This document shows positions 2,916-30,090 of a stretch of DNA of 35,836 nucleotides, piece after piece (positions within the stretch are counted from its first letter, which is position 1; each line of letters starts with the position of its first letter). The stretch covers positions 1-35,836 of the forward strand of contig JASHSJ010000022.1 in the NCBI GenBank assembly GCA_030040895.1. Direction: 5' to 3'. Both the position numbers and the translations under genes were made by a program. This stretch comes from Microcaldota archaeon. GTDB lineage: Archaea; Micrarchaeota; Micrarchaeia; Micrarchaeales; Micrarchaeaceae. Under the pieces are notes generated by a model, which was not told where the DNA came from, did no database searches, and worked only from the letters and a program-made list of their open reading frames with translations.

Positions 2916-4064
2916 ATGAAGAGATATTTCACATCTGAGAGTGTAACAGAGGGCCATCCTGACAAGGTATGCGACGGAATCAGCGATGCGATACTTGACG
3001 CATGCTTGGCACAGGATCCAGACAGCCACGTTGCTGTGGAAACGCTAGTAACTAGGGACTTCTGCTGCGTTGCAGGAGAGGTAACAACAAGAGGAAAGGT
3101 TGACTTTGAGAAGGTAGCAAGGCAGAAGATAAAAGAAATAGGGTACACTGACCCAAACCTGGGGTTCTCAGAAAAGTCAAAAATAATGGTTCTGATCCAT
3201 GAGCAAAGCCCAGACATAGCAAAAGGAGTTACAAAGGAGAAGGAAGACGAACAGGGAGCAGGAGACCAAGGGATCATGTTCGGATATGCTTCAAGGGAAA
3301 CGCCAGAGCTCATGCCATTGCCAATAATGCTAGCACACGCGCTGGCAAAGAGGATGGCAGAGGTAAGGAAGAAGGGCATAATACCAGAAGTCCTTCCAGA
3401 TGGTAAGAGCCAGATAACGTTTGAATATGATGACAAGAAACCAAAGAGAGTAGACACAGTTGTCATATCAACACATCACAAGGAATGCGATGTCCAGAAA
3501 CTAGAAGCAGATATAATAGAGAAGGTAATCATACCAGTACTTGGCAAGTGGTTTGACAAAGATACCAGGATATTCATAAACCCGGCAGGAAAGTGGACAT
3601 TGGGCGGGCCCGCGGCCGATACGGGGGTAACTGGCAGAAAGATAATAGTAGATTCATATGGAGGAAGGGGAAGGCACGGAGGAGGGGCTTTCTCAGGAAA
3701 GGACCCGTCAAAGGTAGACAGATCTGCTGCATACGCTGCAAGATACGTTGCAAAGAACATAGTGGCGGCTGATCTTGCTGACGAATGCGAAATCCAGATA
3801 TCGTACTGCATAGGCTATGCAGAGCCGTTGAGCATACACGTTGAGTGCTTCGGCACAAACAAGATATCTCAGGACAAGATAGAGCAGCTTGTCAGGAAGC
3901 ATTTCAAGCTCAGGCCTGCCCAGATAATAAGGGAGCTGGGACTCAAGGCCCCGATCTATCACATGACAAGCGCTTATGGACACTTCGGGAAGGATGGAGT
4001 TCCTTGGGAGAAGACCGACAAGGTTGCAGTGCTCAAAAGGGAAGTTGCCTCAGAAAGGATCTGA
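2916..4064 (+). CDS. metK: S-adenosylmethionine synthetase, bacterial type
   Basis: Makes S-adenosylmethionine from ATP and methionine for methylation reactions. The 382 residues show the bacterial MetK signatures: GHPDK (13-17), [12 protein letters not shown] (114-125, methionine/ATP site) and the glycine-rich [16 protein letters not shown] (from 255). This family differs from the unrelated-looking archaeal MAT (MTH1691 type) found in most archaea, so its presence here is notable. Length matches the bacterial family. The start is supported by GAAAGGT about 8 bases upstream. The gene is divergent from the metG operon, so two methionine-using enzymes of bacterial type sit side by side. Confidence 0.97.
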
Positions 4065-7443: not shown

Positions 7444-8851
7444 GCAACTTCCACTTTTTCTCTACTTCATCAACTAGTTCCTTTGGAAGCGATATTGTAT
7501 CAGGCCACTCTCTGGTATATCCTTCTTCCTTTGTCTTCTTCGTTGCATCAATGAGCATCTTTGAGCCGAACGCTGGTATATTCGTTGTGTGATCAAGCGA
7601 GTCCGCCGTCGCTCCAGTTATTATCTGGACATCACGTTGCGGCTCTATCCTTGTTGCCAGCGCCCAGGTGACCTGCGACATGTCCCTTATGTCTATGTCA
7701 TCGTCAAATACCACTATTATCTTCAGGAATGAGAGCTGGCCCATGCCAAGAACGGAGAACATTACTTTCTTTGCCTCGCCCGGAAATCTTTTCTTTATCG
7801 AAACAAAGCACATGTTGGTGAAGATTCCTTCTGCCGGCGCGTATATGTCAACTATTGCAGGATTCATCGACTTTATGACTGGCTTGAGGAGATCTCCAAG
7901 GAATTCTATTACGGTGGCGTCTTCATGCCACGGATGCCCCACCACACTTGCCGGGTATATCGGATTCTTTTTCGCATAGATTGAATCTATATGGAATACA
8001 GGATATTCTTCAGCGGTTCCATAATACCCCGTATGATCTCCGAACGGACCTTCCAGCCTCCTGTCGTCAGGATCGACGTGGCCGTTGATTATTATCTCGC
8101 TGTTTGCAGGCACTGCTGGATATTCGCCGTTCTTCATCATGACAGTTTGTTTTTCCCTCAGCATTCCAGCAAACGCAAATTCGTTTATTCCGTGGGGCAG
8201 CGGAGTTATAGCCGCGATCATGCTGTACGGATCGGTCCCGAGCGAAACGGCGGCGTTCAGGCGCTCGCCCTTTTCGTGGGCCTCGCTTGCGTGGATTGCT
8301 CCGCCCTTCTGCGCCTGCCAGTGCATGCCGGTGGTATGGTTGTCAAATACTTGCATACGGTATATTCCAGTGTTGTAGCTCTTGTCCCTGGGGCTTTGCG
8401 TTATGACCAATGGAAGGGTTATGAACTTGCCAGCATCCTTCGGCCATGACTTGAGTATAGGAAGCTCATCCAGGCTGTCAAGTTTTCTGTACTTGTCAAG
8501 ACCGGATTCAATGTACTTTGGCTTCGAATCGAGCAGCATCTTCCCCGCCTTTACTATTGAAAGGCCCTTGCCTGATGCCATCATGCTGCTGAGCTCTGAT
8601 AGCAGCTCTATTGCATAGCTGTTCGTGAACAACTCGCTCAGCGTGTTGCGTGAGCCAAAAAGATTTGTTACAACTGGTATATCATAATCCTCTACTTTAT
8701 TGAACAACAATGTTTTTGCATCTCTTTTGCGCTCCCTGCTCGCAGCATCGGTAAACGCGGTAACTTCCAGCTCCGCGCTGACCCTGGCATTTATTTCCGC
8801 TAGCCTTCCTTTTGCCTTTAGATACTTCACGTATTCCTGCAGATCATTCAT
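7433..8851 (-). CDS. ubiD: UbiD-family decarboxylase
   Basis: 472 residues covering a full UbiD protein. Enzymes of the family use prenylated FMN to remove or add CO2 on unsaturated acids. Visible signatures are NTGIYRMQVFDNHTTGMHW (about 160-180), a PLPHGINEFAFAG segment, EGPFGDHTGYY, the DDDIDIRD stretch and GSKMLIDAT near the end. In archaea UbiD relatives act either in quinone synthesis or on anhydromevalonate phosphate in the modified mevalonate route. The translational overlap with ubiA favours a prenylated-ring or quinone-like pathway, but the sequence does not decide. No UbiX (the prenyl-FMN maker) is in the window. The AMMECR1-like gene ends 8 bases upstream. Confidence 0.93.
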   Translation of the reverse strand: MNDLQEYVKYLKAKGRLAEINARVSAELEVTAFTDAASRERKRDAKTLLFNKVEDYDIPVVTNLFGSRNTLSELFTNSYAIELLSELSSMMASGKGLSIVKAGKMLLDSKPKYIESGLDKYRKLDSLDELPILKSWPKDAGKFITLPLVITQSPRDKSYNTGIYRMQVFDNHTTGMHWQAQKGGAIHASEAHEKGERLNAAVSLGTDPYSMIAAITPLPHGINEFAFAGMLREKQTVMMKNGEYPAVPANSEIIINGHVDPDDRRLEGPFGDHTGYYGTAEEYPVFHIDSIYAKKNPIYPASVVGHPWHEDATVIEFLGDLLKPVIKSMNPAIVDIYAPAEGIFTNMCFVSIKKRFPGEAKKVMFSVLGMGQLSFLKIIVVFDDDIDIRDMSQVTWALATRIEPQRDVQIITGATADSLDHTTNIPAFGSKMLIDATKKTKEEGYTREWPDTISLPKELVDEVEKKWKLLGK

Positions 8852-8859
8852 ACAATCAG

Positions 8860-9453
8860 TCAGAGCCTGACTACCTCCCCGTTCGGCTCCTGTTCAATGA
8901 AAGTCTGCGCTTCGAACTTATATAAGCTTATCTTCGGCTGCGTCCAGTATCTTGATGGCAGGCTTGCCTGCTTGCAAACGTGCTCTAGGAGTTCCACTCC
9001 GGAAGTAACGCTTCCCATGTGCGCCGGTATGGCGTAGCTCTTCTTTGATCCGTATTCCAGGAGCACTCCGTGCCTTCCGGCCTCTACGGTTTTTTCCCTC
9101 TTCCTGGGGTTTTCTGAAAGTGCGATTGGCTCTGATATAATGGTAAGTTCTACTAGTATGTCATTCAGGAACCTGTCAGTCATGCTTTCTATGTTAGCAT
9201 CTTGAAGCGCGGAAGCCGCAGCCTCAACCACTGCCTTGTTGATTGGCAATCTTGTCTCAGGAAGCCCGGATATGCCGATTGGCATCCTCGTAGGCCCGAA
9301 CAGCAGCCTTACAACTGCCCTCTCATTGATCCTTGTCTTGAACGTCTCTTCTATTACTGAATTGTCAACCTGCTCATCCAGTGTTCTGAGTTCAAGGCCG
9401 AGCCTAGCCATACCTATCAGAGCCCTAGCCTCTTCAAGGCTGTACTCCTTCAC
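8860..9453 (-). CDS. AMMECR1-domain protein
   Basis: 197 residues resembling the AMMECR1 domain: an N-terminal helix (YSLEEARALIGMARLGLE), the strand VELTIISEPIAL, the HGVLLEYG segment, and the LLEHVCKQASLP segment followed by a W and the FEAQTFIE strand. The family hallmark LRGCIG is not present; the corresponding region reads RMPIGISG. The molecular function of AMMECR1 is unknown. The start is GTG 9453 with GGTGG four bases upstream, and a TATA box at 9484-9491 predicts a start near 9461. It is first gene of an operon with ubiD and ubiA. Confidence 0.78.
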   Translation of the reverse strand: MKEYSLEEARALIGMARLGLELRTLDEQVDNSVIEETFKTRINERAVVRLLFGPTRMPIGISGLPETRLPINKAVVEAAASALQDANIESMTDRFLNDILVELTIISEPIALSENPRKREKTVEAGRHGVLLEYGSKKSYAIPAHMGSVTSGVELLEHVCKQASLPSRYWTQPKISLYKFEAQTFIEQEPNGEVVRL

Positions 9454-26952: not shown

Positions 26953-28302
26953 ATGAAACTAAAAATCAGAAGGAATTCTCTCAACGAGCAGGAAACCTTC
27001 GAGCAGAAGGTTATGAGGAAGCACAGGAAACTCAGGGGCAAAATAGAGATAATAGGCAGGACTAGGATAAAGACGACTGAAGACCTTGCGACGTTCTACA
27101 CTCCTGGAGTGGCATACGTGAGCTCAGCCATCAGGGAGAACAAAGAACTCTCATATGAATACACTGGCAGAGGCAACAGGATTGCGATAATAAGCGACGG
27201 AACGAGGATCTTGGGGCTGGGAAACATAGGCCCATACGCTGGCATGCCTGTCATGGAGAGCAAGGCACTCCTATTCAAGAAATTTGGCAACGTCGATGCA
27301 ATCCCGCTGGTGCTCAACTGCAGAAGTGCTGATGATATAGTGGCAGTAGCGAAGGCACTGGAACCTGCGATCGGAGGCATAAACATAGAGGATATAGAAG
27401 CGCCGAAGTGCTTTGAGATAGTTGACAGGCTCCATGAAAAACTTGACATACCAGTGTTCCATGATGACAGACATGGAACATCAGTTGCAATACTGGCAGC
27501 GCTCAAGAATGCTCTGAAGTACCAGAGAAAGCAGCTAAGGAAGGTGAAGATTGTCATAAATGGCATAGGTGCGGCAGGAGTCGGAACTGCACAGCTACTC
27601 ATAGCGGCTGGTGCAACTGACATAACAATGTGTGATAGGACTGGAATCCTTTACAAAGGAAGGAAGGAGAACATGAACGACGTTAAGGCAGCGCTTGCAG
27701 AACACACAAACAAATCCATGATAAAAGGGCAGCTACAAGACGCTGCCAGGGACGCAGATGTACTAATAGGATTGTCTACTGCCGGTGCTTTCAACGCAAG
27801 ATTAATCAAGAGCATGAAAAGCAAGCCAGTAGTTTTCGCGCTTGCAAACCCAGAGCCGGAGATAAGATATCATTTGGCAAAGGAGGCAGGAGCAGAGATA
27901 GTCGCAACCGGCGCAAGCAACACAACAAACCAGGTAAACAACCTTCTCGTATTCCCCGCAATATTCAGAGGAGCGCTTGACGTTGGCGCCAAGAAGATAA
28001 ACACCGCAATGCAGCTCGCGGCAAGCGATGCACTAGCTAGGAGCATAAGCGAAAAACGTCTTAGCGCTGATTTCATAATACCAAATTTCGTGAACTCCAA
28101 CATGGCAGAGATAACTGCCGATGTTGCATGCGCAGTTGCGAAGGCCGCAATGCAAACGGGGGTTAGCAGGACAAAGGTCGACCTCAAGCACATGAGAAAA
28201 AACGTGAGAAGCATGCTGAAGAGATATTCGAAAATAGAAAGGATGGTGGCGAGGATGGGCGACGGAAGCCTGTTCAGCGGAATATTCGGAAGGAGGGAAT
28301 GA
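26953..28302 (+). CDS. NAD(P)-dependent malic enzyme
   Basis: Oxidative decarboxylation of malate to pyruvate and CO2. The 449 residues hold FYTPGVAYVSSAI, the GLGNIGPYAGMPVMESKALLFK block with the catalytic Lys, the metal site EDIEAPKCFEI and FHDDRHGTS (family usually has HDDQHGT), and the dinucleotide fold INGIGAAGVG. The length matches the short prokaryotic class without a phosphotransacetylase domain. ATG 26953 is preferred over GTG 26929, which lies upstream of the predicted transcript start. It is divergent from sdhA. An AAGGAGGG near its 3' end serves ccdA. Confidence 0.93.
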   Translation: MKLKIRRNSLNEQETFEQKVMRKHRKLRGKIEIIGRTRIKTTEDLATFYTPGVAYVSSAIRENKELSYEYTGRGNRIAIISDGTRILGLGNIGPYAGMPVMESKALLFKKFGNVDAIPLVLNCRSADDIVAVAKALEPAIGGINIEDIEAPKCFEIVDRLHEKLDIPVFHDDRHGTSVAILAALKNALKYQRKQLRKVKIVINGIGAAGVGTAQLLIAAGATDITMCDRTGILYKGRKENMNDVKAALAEHTNKSMIKGQLQDAARDADVLIGLSTAGAFNARLIKSMKSKPVVFALANPEPEIRYHLAKEAGAEIVATGASNTTNQVNNLLVFPAIFRGALDVGAKKINTAMQLAASDALARSISEKRLSADFIIPNFVNSNMAEITADVACAVAKAAMQTGVSRTKVDLKHMRKNVRSMLKRYSKIERMVARMGDGSLFSGIFGRRE

Positions 28303-28303
28303 T

Positions 28304-29023
28304 GTGAGGAACCAGGATATAATCTTCCTGAACTCGGTATTCTTTGTCATCGGGTTCATAATTGTGTTCTCTGTAGTAGGGATATTGCTCCAGACGCTAG
28401 TGTCCAGCGTGGCACTAGGACTCATGAACACGCTGAGGATCATTGGGGGAGCAGTGATAATAGCATTTGGCGTGCTGTTGATCGCATCAATCAGATACTA
28501 CATACCGATATTCACGAGGGAGTACAAGATAAAGCCAGCTCGATTCAGCAACAGCTTCATTTCTTCACTTGTGTTTGGGATTGCATTTGCGATTGGGTGG
28601 ACTCCTTGCGTCGGACCGATACTGGGCTCCATATATGCACTGGCCATAACTTCACCCAGCATAGGGTTCTTGCTGCTTCTTGCATACTCACTTGGACTCG
28701 GGATCCCTTTCCTAATAGCAGGCGCATTCATATCAAAGGTATCAGGATTCATGAAGAAGATAGGCCCATTCCTGAAATATTTCAACATAATTGGTGGAAT
28801 ATTCCTGATAGCGCTCGGAATATTGGTAGTATCTGATTACATAGGCATTTTATCTGTCTTCCTGATCAACATGAACGGTTATATAGAAGTTAACGGCTCA
28901 CTTAATTTCATAATAGCAATATTTGCCGGAATCTTGACTTTCTTGTCACCGTGCATACTGCCGCTGGTGCCAGCATATCTTTCATATATTGGAGGGACGA
29001 TGGCTGAGACGGAGAGAAAATGA
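28304..29023 (+). CDS. ccdA: CcdA-type thiol-redox membrane protein, circularly permuted
   Basis: Moves reducing equivalents across the membrane to an outward thioredoxin-like partner. The 239 residues have six hydrophobic helices and only two cysteines, Cys102 in GWTPCVGP and Cys217 in LSPCILPL, the two halves of the CcdA redox pair. In normal CcdA the SPC helix is first and the WTPC helix fourth; here the order is 2-3-4-5-6-1, with the SPC helix followed by PAYLSYIGG at the C terminus. The GTG start is fixed by AGGAGGG 6 bases upstream and by the malic-enzyme stop one base before, so no N-terminal helix is missing. The stop overlaps the next gene as ATGA. Confidence 0.9.
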   Translation: MRNQDIIFLNSVFFVIGFIIVFSVVGILLQTLVSSVALGLMNTLRIIGGAVIIAFGVLLIASIRYYIPIFTREYKIKPARFSNSFISSLVFGIAFAIGWTPCVGPILGSIYALAITSPSIGFLLLLAYSLGLGIPFLIAGAFISKVSGFMKKIGPFLKYFNIIGGIFLIALGILVVSDYIGILSVFLINMNGYIEVNGSLNFIIAIFAGILTFLSPCILPLVPAYLSYIGGTMAETERK

Positions 29024-30090
29024 AAATAAGTCCTTATATTATAGTGTTTGGTGCAATAGCGGCAATAATAGTACTGGCTGCTTTGTCCACTTACTTCTTC
29101 AACCAGAGCCAGCCTTCGGCAAACAGCATATCATTGGCTAACCTCACGGACTACGGACCGGCGCCAGCCCTAAATGGATCTGGAGGCTGGATAAACTCAC
29201 AGCCACTGAACCTCAGCCAGCTGAGGGGCAAGGTAGTGCTTATTGACTTCTGGACCTATTCTTGCATAAACTGCATACGGTCCATTCCGTACTTGAATGC
29301 CTGGTATGCAAAATACAAGAACGATGGACTGGTGATAATAGGAGTTTCGACTCCTGAATTTTTGTTCGAGCACAACTACACGAACGTGGCAAATGCTGTG
29401 CAGAGGTTCGGGATACAATATCCGGTAATGCTTGACAACAATTATTCGACGTGGACTGCCTATGACAATCACTACTGGCCAGCTGACTATCTTATAGACG
29501 CAAACGGCGATGTCAGATACGTGCAGTTTGGAGAAGGAAACTACAATGTGACCGAGAAGGCAATACAAGTGCTGCTTGAAAATGCGGGATATTCAGTACC
29601 AACAAATCTCATAAACATAACCAGCCCTGTTAACTTCTCGCTTATAGGAAGCCCGGAGCTTTATCTTGGCTACGGAACCGCAAGGCAGCCAATAGGAAAT
29701 CAGCAGGGCTTCGACCCTGACAATGTTGTAGATTACGGGACGCCAAATGTAACACAGATGAACACTGCTTATTTTGGCGGATCCTGGTACAATGCGCCTG
29801 ATAGCATGATATCGGTCAATGGGTCAAAAATCTTCCTGATATATGATGCAAAGTTCGTGAACGTGGTGGCAAGCGGCAACGGCACTGTGAACCTGACGAT
29901 AAGCCTGGACGGCGCACCGCTGCCTGCGAACAGCCTGGGCGCAGATGCGAAGATTGTAAATGGAAACGCAGTAGTCCAGGTGAACTCGCCGCGGCTCTAC
30001 AACATAATCGAAACTCCGGGATACGGAACCCACGAACTCGAAATAGACGCGCAGCCCGGATTCAGGATCTATACGTTTACTTTCGGCTGA
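29020..30090 (+). CDS. Membrane-anchored thioredoxin-like protein (DipZ C-terminal type)
   Basis: 356 residues. A single N-terminal helix (about 7-27) anchors an outward thioredoxin/TlpA fold: LRGKVVLIDFWTYSCINC with redox Cys82 and Cys85, and the YWPADYLID segment with the cis-proline. From about residue 195 a beta-rich domain with many N-x-S/T sequons follows. The WTYSCINC motif plus the C-terminal beta domain is the arrangement of the C-terminal half of DipZ, where it is fused to CcdA; here the halves are separate genes joined by an ATGA overlap. The pair probably keeps extracytoplasmic thiols reduced or shuffles disulfides. Converges with the Nudix gene, overlapping by 14 bases. Confidence 0.92.
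   Translation: MKISPYIIVFGAIAAIIVLAALSTYFFNQSQPSANSISLANLTDYGPAPALNGSGGWINSQPLNLSQLRGKVVLIDFWTYSCINCIRSIPYLNAWYAKYKNDGLVIIGVSTPEFLFEHNYTNVANAVQRFGIQYPVMLDNNYSTWTAYDNHYWPADYLIDANGDVRYVQFGEGNYNVTEKAIQVLLENAGYSVPTNLINITSPVNFSLIGSPELYLGYGTARQPIGNQQGFDPDNVVDYGTPNVTQMNTAYFGGSWYNAPDSMISVNGSKIFLIYDAKFVNVVASGNGTVNLTISLDGAPLPANSLGADAKIVNGNAVVQVNSPRLYNIIETPGYGTHELEIDAQPGFRIYTFTFG

Follow-up and report, generated by a model that had tools for sequence, protein, structure and literature searches.

A natural circular permutation of a CcdA-family membrane protein in Micrarchaeota and its recurrence in archaea and Chloroflexi

CcdA moves reducing equivalents outward across the membrane via a cysteine pair. 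Its six helices form two inverted repeats, and an elevator movement has been proposed for helices 1 and 4 (PMC7329351; PMC3884852). The question raised by the present locus is whether a member of this family can carry its first helix at the C-terminus and still be the same transporter, as had been claimed for a gene in the window (the whole stretch of DNA that was analysed, 35,836 nucleotides) in a sequence-only reading. The features of the locus are as follows.

28291..28297, plus strand: AGGAGGG, Shine-Dalgarno-like, the GTG start lying 6 bases further on
28304..29023, plus strand: circularly permuted ccdA, helix order 2-3-4-5-6-1, 239 aa, a single open reading frame with a GTG start at 28304 and a stop ending at 29023
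28334..28390, plus strand: native helix 2, the new first helix, residues 11-29 (hydropathy, alignment)
28436..28492, plus strand: native helix 3, residues 45-63 (hydropathy)
28568..28624, plus strand: native helix 4 with WTPCVGP; redox Cys102 codon at 28607-28609 (alignment, hydropathy)
28661..28717, plus strand: native helix 5, residues 120-138 (hydropathy)
28787..28843, plus strand: native helix 6, residues 162-180 (hydropathy)
28844..28909, plus strand: new linker from helix 6 to helix 1, without Lys or Arg, predicted to be extracytoplasmic (hydropathy and charge, rotation scan)
28910..28966, plus strand: native helix 1 with SPCILPL, the new last helix; redox Cys217 codon at 28952-28954 (alignment, hydropathy, 5VKV match)
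29020..30090, plus strand: membrane-anchored thioredoxin-like protein, AhpC-TSA/Redoxin plus Thioredoxin_10, CINC motif at 29263-29274; its start overlaps the ccdA stop (ATGA)

The description of the gene given in the sequence-only reading was found to hold on re-reading of the letters: GWTPCVGP occupies residues 98-105 and LSPCILPLVPAYLSYIGG residues 214-231, six hydrophobic helices were evident as hydropathy peaks, and the GTG start is preceded by AGGAGGG at a distance of 6 bases and by the end of the malic enzyme reading frame (28302) at a distance of one base. No further SPC or WTPC helix was found within the window, and the minus strand of 28304-29023 is full of stops. Upstream of ccdA, the segment 24705-28302 holds a fumarate reductase/succinate dehydrogenase-like flavoprotein and an adjoining membrane protein (minus strand), beside the malic enzyme gene.

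The order of the helices was established by homology searches. The Pfam family DsbD_TM (PF02683) matched the protein in two swapped stretches, residues 8-177 aligning with profile positions 45-216 and the tail with about 7-50; the score was 48.7 bits for the protein as given and 57.4 bits after rotation, both above the cut-off of 27.1 and thus in keeping with homology to this family. A swapped match was also obtained to the solved CcdA structure (PDB 5VKV), the only solved-structure relative found by sequence, with profile positions 199-232 aligning with chain residues 2-35 (i-Evalue 1e-8) and positions 8-190 with residues 40-213 (1e-34). When a hidden Markov model built only from native-order proteins was applied to the protein as given, two domains were reported, of 184.1 and 45.8 bits. 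A rotation scan with the same model gave its best result when the residues after 192 (approximately 47) were moved to the front, upon which the two matches became one full-length domain of 244 bits over residues 4-235. The linear order 1-2-3-4-5-6 of the CcdA/DsbD_TM family is thus replaced here by 2-3-4-5-6-1, as the earlier reading had proposed. Its placing of the new ends in the helix 1-2 loop was also borne out, since the ends of the permuted proteins fall within the native 1-2 loop and together resemble it. The window protein is accordingly a member of the CcdA/DsbD-TM family whose helix 1 (SPCxLPL) comes after helix 6, a short linker connecting what are the two ends of the native protein.

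The draft assembly from which the window is taken has 34 contigs, and a protein of this kind could in principle be produced by misjoined pieces of a native ccdA, or by a truncated gene whose helix 1 is coded upstream. This explanation is extremely improbable. Single open reading frames with the same order occur in more than 50 genomes whose assemblies are unrelated, the contigs reaching 727 kb, and the start position and the stop/start overlap are conserved; in the sequence-only reading truncation had been considered unlikely, and a frameshift or an assembly error had been named as what could overturn the claim. Inspection of the DNA within 600 bases of each of 77 permuted reading frames turned up no separate SPC helix, and a profile search of the window's own genome revealed no other DsbD_TM copy, ccdA being present there once. 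Assembly artefact, truncation and frameshift were rejected on the evidence of the independent genomes.

The distribution of the two forms was examined among archaea and their neighbors, the helix order being read directly from fetched reading frames for most permuted and native copies. In the order to which the window belongs (genus, family and order mates), 21 genomes carry the permuted form, with one reading frame each, and 22 genomes from other families of the same class have the native order. Permuted and native copies were found in 7 genomes each of the phylum Aenigmatarchaeota, and in 23-24 and about 21 genomes, respectively, of the Woesearchaeota phylum. The permuted reading frames start approximately 98 residues ahead of WTPC throughout, and in most Micrarchaeota the ccdA stop overlaps the ATG of the next gene (ATGA). 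Native-order CcdA proteins of Woesearchaeota and of other Micrarchaeota families are about 40-53% identical to the window protein over helices 2-6. Since most genomes of the window's genus are without ccdA, the gene is dispensable.

Some genomes, G103 and G101 among them, hold both forms. In L154 (G103, Woesearchaeota phylum) a permuted and a native ccdA lie 5 kb apart, at 3033-3782 and 8327-9037, and the thioredoxin-like genes that follow them are distinct, one for each copy. A 118-aa open frame at G1020:C17:58501-58824 had matches limited to helix 1 and the helix 2-3 region, and is possibly a half-size CcdA or a fragment. Viral contigs gave one distant match.

The charge distribution bears on the topology. 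In 51 permuted proteins the mean number of Lys plus Arg residues was 2.2 for the N-terminus, 5.6 for loop 3-4, 3.5 for loop 5-6, 0.7 for the linker 6-1 and 2.0 for the C-terminus; in 90 native proteins it was 1.0 for the N-terminus, 3.0 for loop 1-2, 4.9 for loop 3-4, 3.5 for loop 5-6 and 1.1 for the C-terminus. Under the positive-inside rule these counts place the native ends outside and the permuted ends inside, which supports the cytoplasmic location assigned to the new ends in the earlier reading. Both of the cut sites observed in this work (the 1-2 loop, and the 3-4 loop of a second permutation described below) would be cytoplasmic, and permutation would convert an N-out/C-out protein into an N-in/C-in one. 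With both ends in the cytoplasm, no N-terminal tail would be left to translocate, and the mobile helix 1 would be tethered through an outside loop in place of an inside loop.

Whether the permuted protein still works as CcdA was considered from its conserved residues and its partner gene. In an alignment of 24 permuted rows, W99-T100-P101-C102 and S215-P216-C217-L219-P220 were invariant. From the invariance of the two redox cysteines, Cys102 of helix 4 and Cys217 of helix 1, and of the prolines and glycines around them, we infer that the six helices pack as they do in CcdA. Two AlphaFold2 models were of moderate confidence (pLDDT 63.2, pTM 0.59; and pLDDT 75.8, pTM 0.70, the latter fusing two helices), and with both as queries an order-dependent Foldseek search against the PDB returned no CcdA match; the models were left out of the evidence, and the predicted CcdA fold is based on homology. 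A homologue of the thioredoxin gene lies directly downstream of ccdA in most permuted and most native DPANN copies, so that the genetic link to an extracytoplasmic thioredoxin-fold partner, seen in the window as an overlapping gene, is kept in permuted and native relatives. No homologue of this gene was found beside the Chloroflexi copies of order 2-3-4-5-6-1 in the stretches fetched. Since the two forms share the membrane-anchored thioredoxin gene as their immediate downstream neighbor, the function, transfer of electrons from the cytoplasm to the adjoining thioredoxin, was probably unchanged by permutation. Electrons would enter from a cytoplasmic thioredoxin at the Cys102/Cys217 pair, and the putative acceptor would be the CINC site in the product of the next gene, the anchored extracytoplasmic thioredoxin.

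A real permutation in which the function of CcdA was lost or changed, for example to the movement of another solute, would agree with the membership of DsbD_TM in a wider transporter superfamily and with a weak NCBIfam match to ArsG-type permeases (42.5 bits, far below the cut-off of 200). Given the invariance of both redox cysteines and their motifs in the permuted rows, and the retention of the thioredoxin partner beside permuted and native copies alike, such a change is improbable. It is very likely that the gene encodes a CcdA-type transmembrane electron carrier, predicted to be working, with a circularly permuted chain.

Beyond the reach of the sequence-only reading, which had dealt with the one protein, permutation recurs, and a second permutation with the order 4-5-6-1-2-3 exists. 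One Chloroflexi match, L064, has the order of the window protein, and another, L080/L208, has the order 4-5-6-1-2-3. A family search of the phylum Chloroflexi listed only the best native matches, and queries in permuted order were required to reveal further copies. In 245 genomes of the class of these two matches that were searched, neither permuted order proved to be a one-off: the fetched reading frames comprised 24 native, 17 of order 2-3-4-5-6-1 and 25 of order 4-5-6-1-2-3, and in both permuted counts one genome is represented by two fetches. The former order is represented by an independent Chloroflexi clade (L064, L209, L211-L225), and the latter was found in about 24 Chloroflexi genomes (L080, L208:744-1658 on the minus strand, L231-L252, L270). 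The 4-5-6-1-2-3 copy of L240 (G1304) appears to have a separate origin.

The number of origins was estimated from trees. Long branches met in the first tree, and trees of helices 2-6 only were used to exclude the rotated part; in these a Diapherotrites copy and one copy from the Woesearchaeota phylum fall among native proteins. On the sequence trees the native order is shown as the ancestral one, because the outgroups have it. A tree of sequences placed in canonical order required eight order changes, at least six of them forced by well-supported branches. In AU tests a single clade of all 2-3-4-5-6-1 proteins was rejected (p=3e-61), as was a single clade of all 4-5-6-1-2-3 proteins (p=0.0042; p=0.12, not rejected, when L240 was left out), and grouping the single Chloroflexi row with the DPANN rows had been rejected in an earlier test (p=0.027). 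These single-origin tests were chosen after the data had been seen, and, since both forms occur together in some genomes, the number of gains could be blurred or overestimated through exchange between paralogues. Because one origin was rejected for either order, we conclude from the trees that permutation was probably gained at least four times, twice per order.

The distribution could also be read as the product of one ancient permutation that was spread by gene transfer and partly reverted. A single origin within DPANN was not rejected (AU p=0.064 with all rows, 0.158 with the two main clades), and transfer probably happens, as a DPANN-like permuted copy was found in 1 of 333 Patescibacteria genomes. 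The rejection of a single clade for each order, the two different cut sites and the order changes forced by well-supported branches all run counter to this reading, which is unlikely. The sole Patescibacteria copy (L060/G102, Ryanbacteria) groups inside the Woesearchaeota clade; it was probably acquired by a CPR bacterium from archaea, or else is a binning error.

Recurrent gain is thus the preferred reading. It is likely that CcdA has been permuted repeatedly by nature, with at least four independent fixations, among archaea and Chloroflexi, of two orders (2-3-4-5-6-1 and 4-5-6-1-2-3), every cut falling in a cytoplasmic loop and each one turning an N-out/C-out protein into an N-in/C-in one with function kept; eased insertion and a tolerant, pseudo-symmetric elevator fold are the probable reasons. 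The likely route would be that ccdA was duplicated in tandem and that the outer parts of the pair were then lost. No seven-helix, tandem or duplicated intermediate reading frame was found in the fetched loci.

The circular permutation of the window protein, a polytopic membrane electron transporter, is real, natural and conserved, and it forms part of a wider, recurrent phenomenon. Such permutations are well known in soluble proteins and almost unheard of in helical membrane proteins, in which circular permutation has been called unobserved (PMC7162841) or known only from the VKOR/DsbB pair (PMC4555120). No paper joining CcdA or DsbD with circular permutation was found in a search that left most subscription papers and preprints outside its scope, so that priority is uncertain. 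Native and permuted proteins form natural pairs, about 50% identical, which belong to sister families, or in some cases to a single genome, and have a common partner gene, and the effect of helix order on insertion, topology and the elevator mechanism is therefore directly testable. There is also a consequence for annotation, as order-bound profiles split or under-score permuted CcdA.

In comparison with known systems, the window protein resembles CcdA (e.g. that of Thermus, 5VKV; PF02683) in its full-length homology, six helices, both redox cysteines, the SPCxLPL and WTPCxGP motifs and the adjoining gene for a thioredoxin-like partner; it differs in the order 2-3-4-5-6-1, in ends that would lie inside rather than outside and in a helix 1 that would hang on an outside-loop tether. 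In DsbD/DipZ fusions a CcdA-like membrane domain works with a thioredoxin-fold domain, whereas the thioredoxin of the window is encoded by a separate, overlapping gene and is unfused, and the membrane domain is permuted. Native CcdA proteins of Woesearchaeota and of other Micrarchaeota families (e.g. L053, L055, L131-L142) are mostly encoded just ahead of an anchored thioredoxin gene of the same kind but retain the native helix order. The Chloroflexi proteins of order 4-5-6-1-2-3 are likewise cut at a cytoplasmic loop, but at 3-4 instead of 1-2, and would have separate origins. A parallel to the permutation itself is provided by VKOR and DsbB, redox proteins of the membrane (four-helix thiol oxidoreductases) in which circular permutation has also occurred naturally (PMC4555120). 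Their relation is distant and at the level of the fold, with an undetectable direction of change, whereas the two forms of CcdA remain similar in sequence, with a clear ancestral order and a change that recurs.
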